Shown here in pieces: positions 34,819-45,417 of a DNA stretch of 64,000 bases. The position numbers and the translations under genes are program-made. Within the stretch, counting starts at the first letter, position 1. Each line of letters opens with the position of its first letter. The stretch is taken from assembly GCA_949295115.1 (NCBI GenBank), contig CASFJU010000003.1, positions 1-64,000 on the forward strand, written 5' to 3'. This DNA comes from an uncultured Phascolarctobacterium sp. Lineage in GTDB: Bacteria; Bacillota; Negativicutes; Acidaminococcales; Acidaminococcaceae. The notes below the pieces were generated by a model. That model searched no databases and had not been told where the DNA came from. It was given only the letters and a program-made list of their open reading frames with translations.

Positions 34819-36354
34819 ATGCAGAACATTTTTATTATAGAAGCCGTTTCGACAGGGCGCTTTTACGCCAAGGAAATCGCCTGGCGCGGCTATCATCCGG
34901 TGGTTATCTATCCGTATCTGGAAAATATTACCGACGTGTACAAGCAATACCGCAACGGCGGCAGCGATTATGCGCGCAAATTTACGGACGATATTATTTT
35001 TATGGACAGCGACAGCAGCGAAGCGTATCAGGCACTGCTGGATAAGTTTCAGCCGGTGGCGGTGGTGGCAGGCAGTGAGCTGGGCGTAATCGCAGCGGAT
35101 TATCTGGCTCGCAAGGCCGGTCTGCCGGGCAATGACCCTGCAACAGCGGAATGCCGACGCAACAAATTTTCTATGGTGGAAGCCCTGCAAAAAGCAGGTG
35201 TGCCTGCCATCCGCAGCGCAAAATTAAACAGCGTTGATGAGTGTTTGCAGTTGGCGGCAGAGTGGAATACATGGCCGGTCGTTATCAAGCCGCTCAGCGG
35301 CGCGGGCACTAAAGGTGTGCATTTTTGCAGCAGTATGGACGAACTGCGCACCAAAGCGGAAGAAGTATTTAAAGACAGTGACCTTTTCGGTTACGGCAAC
35401 GCGCAGATTTTAATGCAGGAATTCGCCAAAGGCACGGAATTCATCGTCAACACGGTATCCTGCGGCGGCAGGCATGCTATTACAGACGTGTGGCGTTACC
35501 GCAAAATCGCTGTGGGCGATAAGGGCAACGCTTACGATTACGCCAAACTGGTAACGCAGCCGGACGCGGACGAGCGGGCGGTAATGGATTATGCTTTGCA
35601 GGTGCTTGACGCGCTGGGCTTTGAATATGGACCTTCGCACACTGAGATAATGCTGACGGAACGCGGTCCGCTTTTGATTGAAACCGGCGCGCGCCCGATG
35701 GGTGCGGTGCATGACACGGAAGCCTTGCAGGAAGCGCTGGGGCATTTTATTATTGATGTTTCGCTTGATACCTACATCGACCCGGCAGCAGCGGAAGCCT
35801 TTGCGGCTAAGCCTTACAGCCCCGCCAAAACGATTATGACGAAGGTGTTTATCTCACAGGAATCTGCGGAGCTGAAAGAGATTCCGCTGTTTACGCTGCT
35901 TAAATATCTGCCGACGGTGCGTAAGGGCGATTTTGATTATGTTAAAAGAACCATGCGCGTGGAAGTAACGGTCGACCTTGCCACTACGCCGGGCGAACTG
36001 CAATTATGCGGCAGCGAGGAGCAGGTAATGCACGATTACGCAGCGTTGCGCGCGTTTGAGCAGCAGGCGTTTGACCTAATCTTTGCCAAAGAAGTGCATT
36101 ATTTTACCGCTCCGCAGGTAACGGTAAGCCTTGCCGACGGCGGCGAATGGCTGGAACTGGCGCTTTCCGAACGCAGCGACGGCACAATCCGCTGGACGGA
36201 TTTAATTGACGACCTTGGCAGCCTTGCGGGCAGTGCCGATGTGCAGGTAAAATTTACCGGCGTTGTGCCGGAACTGGCACAGGGGCTGGAACTTTTAATG
36301 CAGGCACTGTACTTTGAAAACAGCGGCGGCGTGTGGAAAAAGGTGGAGGCATAA
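34819..36354 (+). CDS. ATP-grasp carboxylate-amine/thiol ligase family protein
   Basis: 511 residues. N-terminal pre-ATP-grasp Rossmann-like domain (about 1-105, ending VVAGSELGVIAADYLA), ATP-grasp core (about 115-320): GNDPATAECRRNKFSMVEAL, PVVIKPLSGAGTKGVHFC, LMQEFAKGTEFIVNTV, LLIETGARPMG, and a long C-terminal domain (about 330-511). The layout resembles BacD/L-amino-acid ligase-like enzymes. It stands alone between terminators with its own extended -10 promoter (TATAAT, 34785-34790), so no partner genes reveal its substrate. An amino-acid or peptide ligase role is inference. Confidence 0.78.
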   Translation: MQNIFIIEAVSTGRFYAKEIAWRGYHPVVIYPYLENITDVYKQYRNGGSDYARKFTDDIIFMDSDSSEAYQALLDKFQPVAVVAGSELGVIAADYLARKAGLPGNDPATAECRRNKFSMVEALQKAGVPAIRSAKLNSVDECLQLAAEWNTWPVVIKPLSGAGTKGVHFCSSMDELRTKAEEVFKDSDLFGYGNAQILMQEFAKGTEFIVNTVSCGGRHAITDVWRYRKIAVGDKGNAYDYAKLVTQPDADERAVMDYALQVLDALGFEYGPSHTEIMLTERGPLLIETGARPMGAVHDTEALQEALGHFIIDVSLDTYIDPAAAEAFAAKPYSPAKTIMTKVFISQESAELKEIPLFTLLKYLPTVRKGDFDYVKRTMRVEVTVDLATTPGELQLCGSEEQVMHDYAALRAFEQQAFDLIFAKEVHYFTAPQVTVSLADGGEWLELALSERSDGTIRWTDLIDDLGSLAGSADVQVKFTGVVPELAQGLELLMQALYFENSGGVWKKVEA

Positions 36355-36366
36355 ATTTTGCATTTT

Positions 36367-36394
36367 AGCGGATATGGCGGAAGCTGTATCCGCT
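36367..36394 (+). terminator. Terminator after the ATP-grasp gene
   Basis: AGCGGATA (36367-36374) pairs with TATCCGCT (36387-36394), followed by TTTT. Confidence 0.85.
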
Positions 36395-36433
36395 TTTTAA
36401 TTTGCTTTATATGGTACAATGATAACAACGGCG

Positions 36434-36476
36434 TTCAGCTTTAATTCATTTTGGGTTAAGGTTGCGGCGGTATATT
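36434..36476 (+). promoter_or_regulatory. 11-bp direct-repeat promoter of the response regulator gene
   Basis: TTCAG (36434), TTCAT (36445) and TTAAG (36456) are exactly 11 bp apart, and a -10 TATATT starts at 36471, 15 bp after the last repeat start. This is the geometry of an OmpR/PhoB-type activator binding over a missing -35 box. The same layout precedes the GT39 gene, implying autoregulation. Confidence 0.65.
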
Positions 36477-36509
36477 TTGGGTATAAAATGGCAGAATGCA
36501 GGTGATAGA

Positions 36510-37178
36510 ATGAAGGTTTTACTGGCGGAAGACGATTTGCGCCTTGGCAAAATGCTGAAAAATATTTTAAGCAGGCAGGGCATTAACGCCAAATGGGTGA
36601 CGGACGGCAACGCTGCGTACAGCGAATGTTACGCCGACAGCTACGATGTGCTGGTGCTGGACTGGATGATGCCGGGCATGGATGGCATTGAGCTGTGCCG
36701 CCTTTTGCGCGAAGAAGAATATCAGGGCAAAATTTTAATGCTGACGGCGCGCGATACGCTGGACGACAAGGTTAACGGGCTTAACGCCGGTGCGGATGAT
36801 TACCTTGTAAAGCCCTTCGCCGTGGCGGAACTGCTGGCGCGTTTAACGGCGCTGACCCGCAGGCAGGGCAGCTATATTAACGAAAACCTTGAATATAAAG
36901 GCTATGTGCTGAAAAGCGATAACTACACCATCGGCTACAACGGCGAATTTGTCGAGCTGCGCCCGCGAGAGTTTAAACTGATGGAAGTGCTGCTGCGCAA
37001 CGCAGGCAAAATCATCCCGCGCGACGTGCTGCTGGAACGCGTATGGGGTATAGAAAGCGATATTACCGATAACAACCTTGACGTGCATATCCGCGCTTTG
37101 CGCCGCAAGCTGGAGCAGATACACGCCGGTGAGCTGATAAGAACCGTGCGCGGCGTAGGCTACATGGCAGAGGCGTAG
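36510..37178 (+). CDS. OmpR/PhoB-family response regulator
   Basis: 222 residues; ATG at 36510 (MKVLLAEDDLRLG). Receiver: AEDD acidic pair, VLDWMMPGMDG with phospho-Asp near 51, LTARDTLDDK, YLVKPFAVAEL. C-terminal winged helix: ELRPREFKLMEVLLRNAGK, VWGIESDITDNNLDVHIRAL, IRTVRGVGYMAEA. Resembles the QseB/PmrA subgroup. Three bases separate it from the kinase gene. The repeats upstream of itself and of the GT39 gene are the likely binding sites. Confidence 0.93.
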   Translation: MKVLLAEDDLRLGKMLKNILSRQGINAKWVTDGNAAYSECYADSYDVLVLDWMMPGMDGIELCRLLREEEYQGKILMLTARDTLDDKVNGLNAGADDYLVKPFAVAELLARLTALTRRQGSYINENLEYKGYVLKSDNYTIGYNGEFVELRPREFKLMEVLLRNAGKIIPRDVLLERVWGIESDITDNNLDVHIRALRRKLEQIHAGELIRTVRGVGYMAEA

Positions 37179-37181
37179 GCA

Positions 37182-38441
37182 ATGTTCGGTAAATTAAAAC
37201 GCAGGCTGGCGTTAATTTATACAGGGATTTTTGCGTTGATACTCGTTATCGTGGTGGCGGCAACGGTAATTATCGGCGGCGTATCCGTTATTAAAAACGA
37301 AAAAGAAATGCTGATAGCCGATATTCACGACGAATGGCGTGAGTGGACGGGCAGCGGCGAACTGCCGGTAGACCCGGTAATGGTTGAGCGCGGCGAGATG
37401 ATGTCGCTGCTGTACGACGGCAGCGGCAGGCTGGTAGTAGACCAGATGTCTGGCAGCCCTTATGCGGAGCAGATTATGTCGATGCGCGAAAATTGGCCGC
37501 AGGAGGACGGCAGCACGGAGATACTGTGTTTTGAAAACGGCGGTGAAAAAAAGTTTATCCTCATGGGGTTGTGCCGCTTTGTAACCAACGGAACCGTGCA
37601 GGGTGACCTGTATACTTTTGTTAACCTTGAAGATTATTACGACATGGCGGTGGACGGTTTTGCCTTTTTGCTGCTGCTGTGCCTGGTGTGCATTGTTACG
37701 GCGGGCGGCGGCGGTTACTACATGGCTGCCAAAAACATCAAACCGCTGGAGCTTTTGTTTAAGCGTGAGCATGAATTTGCCGCAAACGCTTCGCATGAGC
37801 TGCGCACGCCGCTGACGGTGATGAGCCTTGGCATAGAAAGTTTGCAGAACGACCCGGACAGCAAATTCAGCCCTTACGCCGAAGAAACACTGCGTGATAT
37901 GCAGCAGGAAACGCAGTATATGTCCAAGCTGACGGAGGCGCTTTTAACTTTGGCGCGCGGCGATGAGGACAACGTAACATTACAGAAAGAGAAGGTTGAT
38001 TTAACCGCCGTAATGGCGGATATATGCGCGCAGCTGCGCCCGCTGGCGGAGCAGAAAAATTTGCAGCTGGTTTTTAACGGCACGCGCAGGGTGTTTTCGC
38101 TGTGTGATAAGGATAAAATCAAACAGCTTTTGATAATTCTGGTGGACAACGCCATAAAATATTCCGATAGCGGCACGATTACGGCCGAGGTAGAAGCGGA
38201 CGGCATGCAGGCAGTAATCCGCGTGCTTGATGAAGGTATCAGCATTACCGAAGGCGAGGCAGAACGCATTTTTGAACGATTCTACCGCGTGGACAAAGCC
38301 CGTTCGCGCGCAAGCGGAGGTTTTGGGCTGGGTTTAAGCATTGCTCAGTGGATTGTAAAACGCCACGGCGGCAGCATTACGGCGCACCAGCGTGATGGCG
38401 GCGGCACGGTGTTTACGGTGCGGCTGGCGCTGTACAGATAA
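37182..38441 (+). CDS. Membrane sensor histidine kinase
   Basis: 419 residues. TM1 about 12-32 (LIYTGIFALILVIVVAATVI), an extracytoplasmic sensor of about 125 residues, TM2 about 160-183 (FAFLLLLCLVCIVTAGGGG), no clear HAMP domain, then HisKA (EFAANASHELRTPLTVMSLG, phospho-His) and HATPase_c (VDNAIKYS, FGLGLSIAQWIV). Cognate kinase of the preceding regulator. The stimulus is unknown; given the GT39 target, a cell-envelope signal such as cationic peptides is a reasonable guess. Confidence 0.93.
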   Translation: MFGKLKRRLALIYTGIFALILVIVVAATVIIGGVSVIKNEKEMLIADIHDEWREWTGSGELPVDPVMVERGEMMSLLYDGSGRLVVDQMSGSPYAEQIMSMRENWPQEDGSTEILCFENGGEKKFILMGLCRFVTNGTVQGDLYTFVNLEDYYDMAVDGFAFLLLLCLVCIVTAGGGGYYMAAKNIKPLELLFKREHEFAANASHELRTPLTVMSLGIESLQNDPDSKFSPYAEETLRDMQQETQYMSKLTEALLTLARGDEDNVTLQKEKVDLTAVMADICAQLRPLAEQKNLQLVFNGTRRVFSLCDKDKIKQLLIILVDNAIKYSDSGTITAEVEADGMQAVIRVLDEGISITEGEAERIFERFYRVDKARSRASGGFGLGLSIAQWIVKRHGGSITAHQRDGGGTVFTVRLALYR

Positions 38442-38471
38442 CAACTTAACAAAAACATAAAGCTCCTTAAC

Positions 38472-38525
38472 TTCAGGCAGGGTTCAGACTACGTTCAGTC
38501 TGGTTTAATGGCACCTTTGTATAAT
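38472..38525 (+). promoter_or_regulatory. 11-bp direct-repeat promoter of the GT39 gene
   Basis: TTCAG at 38472, 38483 and 38494, then TTAAT at 38505, each 11 bp apart; -10 TATAAT at 38520-38525, 15 bp after the last repeat start, with no recognisable -35 box. Identical geometry to the regulator's own promoter. Confidence 0.7.
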
Positions 38526-38559
38526 GAAGGTGAACTTGAAGCTAAGGAGCTGATTTTTT

Positions 38560-40170
38560 ATGAAACGGTATGGGTGGTATTTATTCTGGCTGGCTGCCGC
38601 ACTGTTGTTGTTTTTCGGCAACGGGCAGCTGTGGATTACCGACAGTGTTGAATCGAACTACGCGCTGACGGCAAAAGAGATGCTGCAAACTGGCGACTGG
38701 GTTTCGCCGCAGATTTACGGGCATTACTGGTATGACAAGCCCATCTTTTTTTACTGGCTGACGGCGCTGGGTTTTAAGCTGTTCGGCTTTACGGAATTCG
38801 GTGCGCGTTTCTTCCCTGCGCTTTTGGGCATGGCGGGGCTGGCTCTTGCGGTTTATGCAGGTGGTAAATTATATGGCGGCAAAACTGCTTTTTGGGGCGG
38901 TGTGGTGCTTTTAACCAGCACGGAGTTTTTCCTCATCAGCAAATCCGTTATTACGGACAGCACGCTGTTCTTTTTCTTCAGCATGGCGCTGGTGTTTTTT
39001 TACCTTGGTTACAGCACGCCGCACAAAAATTATTACTACGGCATGTACGCGGGCATGGCGCTGGCAACTTTAACCAAAGGGCCGATTGGCTTTTTGCTGC
39101 CGGGACTGATTATGGTGCTGTTTTTAACGGCGGATAAAGGCTGGCGCGAAATAAAAAATATGAAGGTGTTCAGCGGCGCGCTGCTGTTTGCCATTATTGC
39201 CGTGCCTTGGTATGCGGCGATGTATAACTTGCACGGCAGCGCTTTTATTGATAACTTTTTCGGTACGCATAATTTTTTGCGCGCCACCGTGTCCGAACAT
39301 CCGCGTGACGATGTTTTTTATTACTACACTCTGGTGCTGCTTCTGGCACTGTTCCCGTGGAGCGGGCTACTGCCGCAGTATTTGTGGCGCACGCTGCGCA
39401 GGGACGGGCACTGGCAAAAGCCGGACAGTACAACGCTGTTTCTGTTAATTTGGGCGGCAACGGTGTTCTTCTTCTTCCAGAATATGGCGACCAAATATTT
39501 AACCTATACATATCCTATGATGTTTCCGCTGGCGTTGCTGCTGGGCAATTATCTGGCGCAGCGCGGCGGGCTTGCCATTAATGCAGGCACGTTAATTGTG
39601 CGAGATATTATTTACATTGCGCTGTTCGGCGGTGCGCTGTGGTGCTGGTGGAACGGCATTACGGATTCCGGTTCGGTAATTTTAATCGGCGCGGTAGTGC
39701 TGGCCATTATCGGCGTCAGCTGGATTTACGCCGGCGTGGAGCGCGGTGTGGCGGCACCGGCTGTTATCGCCGTAACGGCGCTTTTGTTTAACCTGCTATT
39801 GATAAACGAAGTGGCTGTGCCGTTCAGCAGCCTGCGTTCCGCCAAAGCGCTGGGGCTGGAACTGGCGCAGACTTACAAAACGGTTGACGAAGTAGGGCTG
39901 TACGGTAATTACCCAACTTCCGCCGTGTTTTATTCTGGCAAAAACATCGTCAAGCTGGTTAACGACGACGGTTTAAACAGTTTTGCGCCCAGGGCTTACA
40001 GCTGGAACGTGAAAAACGTAATGCCCTTTGACGGCGTAAGCGCCTTTAGCGGACACGGGCAGCTGGTTGTTGTTAAAAAATCGGAAATTGAAAAATTCCT
40101 GACGGCGCAGAACAAAAACTGGCTGATTGTAACTGAAAAAAGCGGCTGGTACATTTTAAAAAGCGCATGA
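38560..40170 (+). CDS. GT39-family (ArnT-like) membrane glycosyltransferase
   Basis: 536 residues, many transmembrane helices. The first periplasmic loop has the GT-C signature WITDSVESNYALTAKEMLQT with the catalytic acidic residues, followed by GDWVSPQIYGHYWYDKPIFF and GARFFPALLG, closely following the ArnT/PMT pattern. ArnT transfers 4-amino-4-deoxy-arabinose from undecaprenyl phosphate to lipid A; other GT39 enzymes mannosylate proteins. Donor and acceptor here are unknown. The direct-repeat promoter and adjacent two-component genes suggest envelope modification on demand. AAGGAG upstream of ATG. Confidence 0.87.
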   Translation: MKRYGWYLFWLAAALLLFFGNGQLWITDSVESNYALTAKEMLQTGDWVSPQIYGHYWYDKPIFFYWLTALGFKLFGFTEFGARFFPALLGMAGLALAVYAGGKLYGGKTAFWGGVVLLTSTEFFLISKSVITDSTLFFFFSMALVFFYLGYSTPHKNYYYGMYAGMALATLTKGPIGFLLPGLIMVLFLTADKGWREIKNMKVFSGALLFAIIAVPWYAAMYNLHGSAFIDNFFGTHNFLRATVSEHPRDDVFYYYTLVLLLALFPWSGLLPQYLWRTLRRDGHWQKPDSTTLFLLIWAATVFFFFQNMATKYLTYTYPMMFPLALLLGNYLAQRGGLAINAGTLIVRDIIYIALFGGALWCWWNGITDSGSVILIGAVVLAIIGVSWIYAGVERGVAAPAVIAVTALLFNLLLINEVAVPFSSLRSAKALGLELAQTYKTVDEVGLYGNYPTSAVFYSGKNIVKLVNDDGLNSFAPRAYSWNVKNVMPFDGVSAFSGHGQLVVVKKSEIEKFLTAQNKNWLIVTEKSGWYILKSA

Positions 40171-42162: not shown

Positions 42163-42693
42163 TTAGCTCTGCTTAAAGCGCGGCAAGATGTTTAACACAA
42201 CCGTGCTGCCAAAGTAGGCGGTAACAATGCCGCCGATAATATCCAGCGGGTAATGCACGCCAAGGTACAGGCGCGAAAACGCAACCAGCACGGCAAGCGC
42301 CATAATAAAGCCGCTGAAATATTTGGGCAGCAGGCGCCAATACACAAAAGCGCTGGCAAACGCCGCCGTGGTATGCCCGCTGGGGAAGGAATAGCCGCTT
42401 GCTTCGGCGAGCGGTGCAAGTTGTGTCAGCACTTCAAACGGGCGCGGGCGCATAACGGCGTTTTTTAAAATAACATTGCTGACAAACGTGCTTAACAATA
42501 GTGCCGCAGCTGCTGCAATGCCAACGCTGCGCGTTTTGGGGTTTATAATCAAAACGGCGGCGGTAAAAATCCAAAACCAGCCCAAATCGCCCAAAAAGCT
42601 TATGCCCGCCCAGAACCAGTGCAGCGGTTCGTGGTACAGCGCGTCATGTATAAAAAGCAAAAGCTGTGCGTCAAGCTGCGTTAAATATGCCAT
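42163..42693 (-). CDS. PAP2-family membrane phosphatase
   Basis: 176 residues with about five membrane helices. The three phosphatase motifs are present: KNAVMRPRP, YSFPSGHTT and SRLYLGVHYPLDIIGG. Likely dephosphorylates undecaprenyl diphosphate or phosphatidyl glycerophosphate at the membrane; sequence does not decide which. AGGAG upstream of the ATG. Confidence 0.9.
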   Translation of the reverse strand: MAYLTQLDAQLLLFIHDALYHEPLHWFWAGISFLGDLGWFWIFTAAVLIINPKTRSVGIAAAAALLLSTFVSNVILKNAVMRPRPFEVLTQLAPLAEASGYSFPSGHTTAAFASAFVYWRLLPKYFSGFIMALAVLVAFSRLYLGVHYPLDIIGGIVTAYFGSTVVLNILPRFKQS

Positions 42694-42762
42694 GCTGCCA
42701 CTCCTTTCCGCCTGCGGGCGTTTTTGTTATTTTTATTGTAACATAAATAAATTAAACGCATA

Positions 42763-45417
42763 TTAAAACCTGCTTGCGCTGATTTTTTTAAAAAACTTGC
42801 ACACTTCAATCTGCACGATGGAAAGTGCGGACAGTCCGAACACCGTCAGCCACAAACCGCCGCTGAGCGTGGTGAGCTTAAAGACGCTCTGCAAGGCAGG
42901 CAGCAGCAAAATGCAGGCCAGCAGCGCGGCGCTGACGGCAAAGCTTACCCACAGCCACGGGTTATGCCCTTCGGCGCGCACCCAGATGTATTCCGTATTG
43001 GAACGCTGGTTAAAGGCGCGCAGCATCTGCGAAAACGCCAGTACGCAGAACGCCATCGTCTGGCCGGTGCTGTGGCTGTGGCTTGCGCCGATGTAGTAGG
43101 CGGCAAGGGTCAGCATTGCCACAAACACGCCCTGCGTTACAACGCGGTGGATAAGGCCGCGTTCAAACAGCGTGCCGCTTTTTACGGGTTTGTGCTTCAT
43201 AATATTTTTGCTGGCAGGGTCAACGCCAAGTGCCAGTGCGGGCAGCGTAGCGGTAGCCAGGTTTACCCACAAAATATGCACTGCAAGCAGCGGCGCGGGC
43301 AGGTTAAACAGCGTGGCGGCAAATAAAGTGGTAATTTCGGCAATGTTGCCCGCCAGTAAAAACTGAATAACCTTTTGCAGATTGCGGTAGACGCGGCGGC
43401 CTTCCTTAATGGCAAAGGCAATGGTGTTAAAGCTGTCGTCCAGAAGTATCATATCTGCCGCGTTTTTGGCAACGTCGGTGCCGGTAATGCCCATGGCGAT
43501 GCCGATGTCCGCAGCTTTCAGCGCGGGCGAATCGTTCACGCCGTCGCCGGTCATGGCGGCAATTTCGCCGGTGCGTTTCAGCGACTGGATAATGCGAAGC
43601 TTATCGGCGGGGGATACGCGCGCAAACACGGTGGTATTTTTTACTGCGCTGTCCAGCTCCGCGTCCGTCATGGCGTTCAGCTCGCTGCCGGATATAACCA
43701 TATCGCCGTCGCGGTAAATATCCAGCTCGCGCGCAATGGCAGCAGCGGTAATTTTGTGGTCGCCGGTAATCATCACGGTACGGATGCCTGCTTCGCGGCA
43801 GGTGCGCACGGCAGCGGCAACTTCCTTGCGCGGCGGGTCAATCATGCCGGCGGCGCCGATAAAGGTTAAGCCGTGCTCAATGTTTTCATCGTCATCCTGC
43901 GGCACGGAGGCAAGCGTTTTGGTGGCAAAGCCCAGCACGCGCAAAGCCTGCTGCGACATCTTATGGCACAGCGCTGAAATATTTTCCTTATCACTTTCGG
44001 TAATCTGGCGCACGCCCTGCGCCGTTAAAATATGGCTGCACAGCGGCAGCATTTCATCAACCGCGCCCTTGGTGTAAGCGGTAAAGCAGCCGTTAATTTT
44101 ATGCACGGTCGTCATGCGCTTGCGCGCCGAATCAAAAGGCTGCTCAAACAGGCGCGGGTATTTATCTTCCAAAGCGTCGTGGTTAATGCCAAACTTCTGC
44201 GCCAGGTAAATCAGCGCGCCCTCCGTCGGGTCGCCGATAATCTCGCCCTTGCGGTCAGGGTCAAGGCTCGCGTCGTTGCACAGCGCGGCGGCGTAAACAA
44301 GTTCCCTGTACAGCGCAGGGTGCTGCATGGCAGCGGTGTCGGTAGGGGTGGCGCTCTGCTTTTCAAAATCGCCGTTCAGCGCCAGCTGCGTCACCGTCAT
44401 TTTGTTCAGCGTAAGCGTGCCGGTTTTGTCGCTGCAAATTACCGTCGCGCTGCCCAAAGTTTCAACGGAAGGCAGCTTGCGTATCAGCGCGTTCTGTTTT
44501 GCCATACGCTGTACGCCCAGCGCCATGGCAATGGTGGCGGTGGCGGGCAGCCCTTCCGGGATGATGGAAATAGCCAGCGACACCGCGATTAAAAACTGCG
44601 GCACCAGCGGGCGTCCGTAAAAAGCGCCCAGCGCAAAAATCAGCACGCAAACGATTAAACCGATAACCGTAAGCGTCTTGCCCGCAGCGTTCAGCTTGCG
44701 TTTCAGCGGCGTGTCAAACTCGTCCTGCCCGTCCAGCAGTGCGGCAATGCTGCCAACCTCCGTCCTCATGCCGGTGGCGGTGGCAATGCCTACGGCGCGC
44801 CCGTAAGTAACTATCGAGCCCGCATAAGCCATATTCGCGCGGTCGCCCAGCGGGCAATCTTCCGGCAGCACAACCTCTGCTTCCTTTTCGGCAGCGACCG
44901 ATTCACCCGTCAGCGAAGCCTCCTGAATCTGCAAATTGGCGCTGTCTGCCAAACGCAGGTCGGCGGGCACCATATCGCCGTCGCTTAAAAACACAATGTC
45001 GCCGGGCACAACTTCCCTTGCGGGGATAATGCTTTCCTCGCCCTGCCTTAACACGCGCGCGTTAGGCGCGGACATGCTGCGCAAAGCCTCCAGCGCGGAC
45101 TGCGCCTTTTTCTCCTGCACAATGCCGATAAGGGCGTTGACGATGACGATGGTAAAAATTACGCCTGCTTCCGCCAGCTCGCCCAGCGCGAAGGACACTG
45201 CCGCCGCACCGACGAGGATTAAAACCATCGGGTCGAAAATCTGCTCTTTAAGCATGGCGGCAATGCTTTTGGGCGGCTTGGCGCGCAGTTCGTTATAGCC
45301 GTATTGCCGCAGCCGTTCAGCCGCTTGTGCGTCGCTCAAACCTTCGGCGCTGCTGCCGAGCTGTTGGTAAACCTGTTGTAAATTTTGTGCGTGTGCATTG
45401 TTACTGTGATAATCCAT
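42763..45417 (-). CDS. P-type cation ATPase, type IIA-like
   Basis: 884 residues from MDYHSNNAHAQNLQQ; the ATG at 45417 is about 13 bases after AAGGGAG. Actuator TGES in EASLTGESVAAEKE, phosphorylation site CSDKTGTLTLNKM, hinge TGDGVNDSPALKAADIGIAMG. Ion site in TM4 IIPEGLPATATIAMALG (Glu kept), TM5 GNIAEITTLF (Asn and Glu kept), but TM6 reads NLATATLPALALG where Ca pumps have N-L-V-T-D: the coordinating Asp is Ala. So Ca2+ is not certain. The gene sits behind a 40-codon leader peptide and terminator. Confidence 0.9.
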   Translation of the reverse strand: MDYHSNNAHAQNLQQVYQQLGSSAEGLSDAQAAERLRQYGYNELRAKPPKSIAAMLKEQIFDPMVLILVGAAAVSFALGELAEAGVIFTIVIVNALIGIVQEKKAQSALEALRSMSAPNARVLRQGEESIIPAREVVPGDIVFLSDGDMVPADLRLADSANLQIQEASLTGESVAAEKEAEVVLPEDCPLGDRANMAYAGSIVTYGRAVGIATATGMRTEVGSIAALLDGQDEFDTPLKRKLNAAGKTLTVIGLIVCVLIFALGAFYGRPLVPQFLIAVSLAISIIPEGLPATATIAMALGVQRMAKQNALIRKLPSVETLGSATVICSDKTGTLTLNKMTVTQLALNGDFEKQSATPTDTAAMQHPALYRELVYAAALCNDASLDPDRKGEIIGDPTEGALIYLAQKFGINHDALEDKYPRLFEQPFDSARKRMTTVHKINGCFTAYTKGAVDEMLPLCSHILTAQGVRQITESDKENISALCHKMSQQALRVLGFATKTLASVPQDDDENIEHGLTFIGAAGMIDPPRKEVAAAVRTCREAGIRTVMITGDHKITAAAIARELDIYRDGDMVISGSELNAMTDAELDSAVKNTTVFARVSPADKLRIIQSLKRTGEIAAMTGDGVNDSPALKAADIGIAMGITGTDVAKNAADMILLDDSFNTIAFAIKEGRRVYRNLQKVIQFLLAGNIAEITTLFAATLFNLPAPLLAVHILWVNLATATLPALALGVDPASKNIMKHKPVKSGTLFERGLIHRVVTQGVFVAMLTLAAYYIGASHSHSTGQTMAFCVLAFSQMLRAFNQRSNTEYIWVRAEGHNPWLWVSFAVSAALLACILLLPALQSVFKLTTLSGGLWLTVFGLSALSIVQIEVCKFFKKISASRF

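Follow-up and report, generated by a model that had tools for sequence, protein, structure and literature searches.

A two-component regulator with matched tandem-box promoters and a hairpin around the promoter of its candidate GT39 target in Phascolarctobacterium

When a response regulator, its kinase and a membrane glycosyltransferase are encoded in a row, and the promoters of the first and the last carry the same repeats, does the regulator act at both promoters, and what becomes of transcripts that run from the regulator operon into the enzyme gene? This is the question raised by a locus of an uncultured Phascolarctobacterium, which lies in the 64,000-nucleotide stretch of DNA that we analysed and refer to as the window; its features are on the + strand unless stated otherwise. 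An ordinary intrinsic terminator (36367-36394; a 12-pair stem followed by a T-run) insulates the regulator operon from an upstream ATP-grasp gene. The operon itself encodes a response regulator, RR1 (36510-37178), whose Response_reg (PF00072, 100.8 bits) and Trans_reg_C (PF00486, 90.7 bits) domains place it in the OmpR/PhoB family, and a sensor histidine kinase with HisKA and HATPase_c domains (37182-38441). It is followed by the gene of a 536-residue membrane glycosyltransferase of the PMT_2/ArnT-like type (38560-40170), in the following called GT39, which was recognized by profile and structure-family matches and belongs to the GT39/PMT family (PF13231, 74.3 bits against a cut-off of 26.1).

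Both promoters are built alike. Ahead of the regulator, an array of three TTMAK pentamers (36434-36460) consists of TTCAG at 36434, TTCAT at 36445 and TTAAG at 36456; ahead of GT39, four such pentamers (38472-38509) comprise TTCAG at 38472, 38483 and 38494 and TTAAT at 38505. The pentamers follow each other at 11-bp steps, and in each case the last one ends 10 bp before a -10 element (15 bp from start to start), namely TATATT at 36471-36476 and TATAAT at 38520-38525. Rereading the sequence thus reproduced exactly the arrays, steps and gaps that an earlier, sequence-only reading of this DNA had described, and its statement that both promoters lack a -35 box was borne out by a promoter scan of the + strand from 36300 to 38700, which found no TTGACA-type promoter or -35 element. 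That reading had also called for a genome-wide motif search. Within the window, TTMAK-N6-TTMAK-N6-TTMAK matches the two arrays only, with 0.00 matches expected from shuffled sequences, and a pattern search of the 1.7 Mb genome likewise returned these two exact matches and no others; with one mismatch allowed, the genome holds 25 matches against 20 in a reversed control, which is chance level.

Among known operators, the arrays come closest in sequence to the BqsR box, and next to the PmrA box. In Pseudomonas aeruginosa, BqsR recognizes TTAAG-N6-TTAAG, which occurs in clusters of up to five pentamers, the most downstream of which overlaps the -35 region, while extra pentamers upstream raise the output (PMC4682146); the PmrA box is a direct repeat of YTTAAK (PMC10927774). 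The RR1 arrays share with the BqsR operator the tandem pentamers with 6-bp gaps, the clustering and the overlap of the last pentamer with the -35 region, and thus exhibit the geometry of this operator type: direct pentamer repeats at 11-bp steps that adjoin the core promoter. They differ from it in their upstream boxes, which are mostly TTCAG or TTCAT and therefore carry C instead of A at the third base, in the regulator, and in the host lineage, the Negativicutes.

The sequence-only reading had further claimed that the adjacent OmpR-type regulator activates its own promoter and that of GT39. We surveyed 59 genomes of the family, 15 of which encode the regulator, with 16 regulator genes in total. 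The motif TTMAK-N6-TTMAK-N10-TA is found upstream of 15 of the 16 regulator orthologues, the exception being that of genome G018, and before GT39 in 11 of the 12 genomes with a regulator-linked GT39 gene; the exception here is G036, where GT39 lies upstream of the regulator. By contrast, the TTCAK form precedes none of the 13 unlinked GT39 genes, that is, orthologues in genomes without the regulator. In genome G004, the array is kept even though the DNA preceding the regulator promoter is not the same as in the window, and across 28 regulator-linked promoters the distance between the boxes and the -10 element is invariant. The association between box and regulator is deep, reaching beyond the family into the Sporomusaceae as far as genome comparison can tell: in Pelosinus, Anaerospora and their relatives, TTCAT/G-N6-TTCAG-N10-TA...T precedes operons of the type GT2-(epimerase)-GT39-GT39-RR-HK, in which one or two GT39 genes are joined by a GT2 glycosyltransferase gene, frequently by an epimerase gene, and in several cases also by those of the regulator (46-50% identical) and the kinase. 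Comparative genomics therefore strongly supports RR1 control of both promoters, given that the boxes follow the regulator gene and that the TTCAK form is absent from unlinked GT39 genes, and we regard the control circuit as well supported by comparison.

The same invariant spacing bears on the direction of this control. The boxes overlap the region from -35 to -23, as deduced from their spacing, so that RR1 bound there could block the polymerase and act as a repressor; yet a usable -35 element is absent, the box-to-(-10) distance is what one would expect of an activator that replaces it, and the related BqsR system activates (PMC4682146). We consider repression highly improbable.

A more relaxed pattern, TTMAK-N6-TTMAK-N10-TANNNT, yielded 92 matches against 33 in the control across 12 genomes, an approximately three-fold enrichment, and its two-box sites mark genes of the envelope, encoding PepSY, UppP/BacA, PAP2, DedA and GT2 proteins. 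We had taken all of these sites as RR1 targets, a view that we dropped once a second OmpR-type regulator, RR2, was found beside PepSY sites. In the window's genome (G000), RR2 is encoded on contig C4 at 194760-195428, divergently from a PepSY-domain periplasmic protein (G000:C4:194658-195428; loci L133 and L260) with the promoter TTAAT-N6-TTAAT-N10-TATAAT, an arrangement conserved in G001, G004 and G006. For a PepSY protein beside a two-component system, DbfQRS of Vibrio cholerae provides a tested precedent (PMC12714742).

This raises the alternative that the arrays in the window are bound chiefly by RR2, or by both regulators, and that GT39 is one member of a broader, shared regulon. RR2 apparently uses similar boxes, since its orthologues in G000, G001, G004, G006 and G022 have TTAAT-N6-TTAAT sites alongside, and the GT39 promoter of G022, a genome without RR1, carries a TTAAT-type site, the only one among the 13 unlinked GT39 genes. 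However, the TTCAK boxes track RR1 and not RR2, both at the RR1 promoters and in the RR1-type operons of the Sporomusaceae, and the two kinds of site differ at position 3 of the first box, which is C in 25 of 28 regulator-linked sites and A in all eight RR2-type sites, each of which reads TTAAT-N6-TTAAT. We therefore think it unlikely that RR2 is the main or a joint regulator at the two arrays, and favor RR1. Conversely, sites of the TTAAT-only kind, such as those of PepSY, PAP2 and UppP, probably belong to RR2, to judge from their sequence. The window contains one of them, on the - strand: TTAAT-N6-TTAAT-N10-TACAAT (42735-42766, found by pattern match), before the gene of a PAP2-family phosphatase that profile matches relate to undecaprenyl-diphosphatases (42163-42693, - strand). 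Because it is of the TTAAT kind, we assign it to RR2, probably, rather than to RR1. With these look-alike sites falling to RR2, the RR1 targets that can be securely assigned in the window's genome are its own operon and GT39.

Several further sites were noted in the course of these searches. The two-box promoter of the PAP2 gene is kept in G004, and PAP2 genes with such sites are also present in G036 and G022; likewise, the undecaprenyl-diphosphatase UppP/BacA is encoded behind two-box sites, at varying distance, in five genomes (L134, L139, L142, L156 and L158). Two-box sites in G031 and G036 (L166 and L169) are located upstream of an apparent RNase P RNA, possibly by chance, and for this reason a GT2 target in G031 and the G036 site were rejected; the GT2 orthologue in G000 has no site. 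Sites at sigma-factor genes overlap the end of the upstream gene and were left uncounted. In G068, CTTAA-type repeats form a long series, with 11-bp steps between several of them, upstream of the second copy of the regulator gene (L274).

What the sequence-only reading had overlooked is an inverted repeat at GT39: one of its arms takes in the Shine-Dalgarno sequence of the gene, and the two arms flank the -10 element and most of the array. The left arm, AGCTCCTTAACTTCAGG (38461-38477), lies upstream of the inferred transcription start and overlaps the first box, whereas the right arm (38535-38551) contains the Shine-Dalgarno sequence AAGGAG and shows covariation; a terminator-like run of six T (38554-38559; four to six in relatives) separates the hairpin from the start codon. 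The predicted fold is strong, with z-scores of -4.6 for the kinase-GT39 junction and -5.1 from the left arm to the start codon. The GT39 start is the strongest outlier among the 59 ORF starts in the window (z -5.05). Across genomes, the z-scores of the hairpin range from -5.1 to -7.0. Pairing of the Shine-Dalgarno arm with upstream sequence reaches p <= 0.003 in eight genomes and is visible in one more (L177, corresponding to the G070 locus), whereas at GT39 genes without the regulator such pairing is insignificant (p 0.10-0.95). In the hairpin core, 98% of the cells are paired over the nine genomes and seven of eight pairs change on both sides (0-3 for slid partners); since MAFFT misaligned the divergent right arms, the arms were set by hand in the register of the Shine-Dalgarno sequence and partly by complementarity, so that these counts are strong, but not independent, evidence. 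A search of the junction against known RNA families gave no match at E <= 1.

The repeat might instead be a DNA binding site or an incidental palindrome. Its arms do include box sequences, and in G021 the hairpin is still kept although an opposite-strand Fic-like gene (L183, 2931-3992) separates kinase and GT39, from which it follows that read-through from the kinase is not the sole possible reason for it; G010, with a divergent GT39 gene, has a weaker version of 7 bp. Against this stands the manner of its conservation: pairing is kept through G-U pairs in several genomes as well as through double changes, the arm sequences otherwise vary freely, and the Shine-Dalgarno sequence invariably makes up one of the arms. 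We accordingly regard a purely DNA-level role as improbable. A more serious contender, though still a doubtful one, is that the hairpin merely terminates the regulator operon and plays no part in translation. It is followed by a run of four to six T in all cases, and in G018, where it is absent before GT39 and the regulator lacks a site, too, an ordinary terminator-like stem takes its place. Still, a standard terminator has a compact, G+C-rich stem with a small loop, whereas here the entire promoter lies within the loop of the outer stem; the terminator scan did not flag the hairpin, and its 3' arm is again always the Shine-Dalgarno sequence. In G018, we also observed a GT2 promoter array inside a palindrome, TAACACTCCAG...CTGGAGTGTTA (L171, about 990-1045), in which the Shine-Dalgarno sequence is not involved.

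We thus favor a hairpin that acts in the RNA and involves translation, an arrangement that resembles gene e of phage T4. There, long early transcripts hide the Shine-Dalgarno sequence, whereas translation proceeds on transcripts from a late promoter, in which the 5' arm is missing; soc, 49 and I-TevI of the same phage have similar inhibitory leader structures (PMC3014915). GT39 shares with gene e the promoter inside the structure and the short transcript without the 5' arm: in silico, the Shine-Dalgarno sequence is paired in the long transcript, and a transcript starting where the -10 element suggests contains the right arm only and leaves the Shine-Dalgarno sequence outside the long stem, which cannot form there because the left arm lies upstream of the regulated start. 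Differences remain, as GT39 is a chromosomal bacterial gene whose predicted hairpin contains an activator array and a -10 element in its loop and is followed by a U-run. The hairpin probably keeps read-through mRNA of the regulator operon silent, and the odds seem to us about even that an array and promoter in the loop of a conserved, Shine-Dalgarno-hiding and terminating hairpin constitute a start-site-dependent insulator on a bacterial chromosome.

As for the enzyme, the sequence-only reading had proposed an ArnT-like, lipid A-modifying target reminiscent of PmrAB control. GT39 matches the ArnT of Cupriavidus metallidurans (PDB 5ezm, 5f15), with which it shares the protein family, with an E-value of 6e-46 over 440 residues (5ezm), and its residues D133, K60 and H247 align with identical residues of that protein, which we take to be catalytic. 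The ArnT motif PDE, on the other hand, is replaced by SVE, with the aspartate two residues earlier (TDSVE), and every aligned orthologue of this subfamily has TD(S/P)VE with the same shift. The closest relatives of GT39 all come from Phascolarctobacterium (95% identity in an uncultured species, 78% in strain ET69 and 59% in P. faecium). Against the ArnT equivalog NF009784, GT39 scores 133.9 bits where 567 are required, and a PF01041 profile search of the window's genome, which is 94% complete, yielded no convincing ArnB but two partial matches of 50.9 and 29.7 bits, the L-Ara4N pathway being judged by ArnB rather than by ArnA, C or D. The aminoarabinose role is therefore unsupported. The PmrAB parallel holds for the operator type and the broad theme, namely an OmpR/PhoB-type regulator, a related direct-repeat box and an ArnT-family enzyme as target; it ends at RR1 itself, which reaches 172.7 bits against the curated NCBIfam cut-off of 330 for the PmrA (BasR) equivalog, so that naming it PmrA or BqsR would be unjustified, and at the donor pathway, for which a convincing ArnB was missing. 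The same reading had been struck by finding such a system in a Firmicute-type genome. A Firmicute it is, but the surprise fades, since this is an LPS-type Negativicute: LpxC is present in the window's genome, which is consistent with LPS.

Taken as a whole, we consider it probable that RR1 activates both promoters and that the hairpin silences read-through GT39 mRNA. In this model, the kinase would phosphorylate RR1, which would then bind the pentamers TTCAK-N6-TTMAK, arranged head to tail at intervals of one helical turn, and, from boxes ending 10 bp before the -10 element, take over the part of a -35 element in recruiting RNA polymerase, at its own promoter and at that of GT39. Read-through mRNA from the regulator operon would contain both arms, with the GT39 Shine-Dalgarno sequence paired and a U-run behind it, and should either terminate or remain untranslated; mRNA from the regulated promoter would lack the left arm and expose the Shine-Dalgarno sequence. 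With long transcripts silent and short ones translatable, GT39 would be produced only when RR1 is active at the GT39 promoter. The enzyme itself would probably transfer a sugar from a polyprenyl carrier to an envelope lipid, and the GT2 and NAD-epimerase genes of the Sporomusaceae operons would fit the supply of a polyprenyl-linked sugar donor.

The regulators of the outer envelope in LPS-bearing Firmicutes, that is, in the Negativicutes, which are common gut bacteria, are apparently little charted: the full-text literature searched, outside which most subscription journals lie, yielded neither a PmrA-like or other envelope-regulator system in this class nor a case like T4 gene e tied to a two-component operator. 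For one of these regulators, our results supply both an operator and a target that are concrete and conserved, and they set this regulator apart from RR2 with its look-alike boxes. It is the hairpin around the promoter that distinguishes this circuit from known tandem-box circuits. If it works as we infer, a regulator operon can directly precede its own target without read-through switching that target on, a trick that is documented in phage T4.
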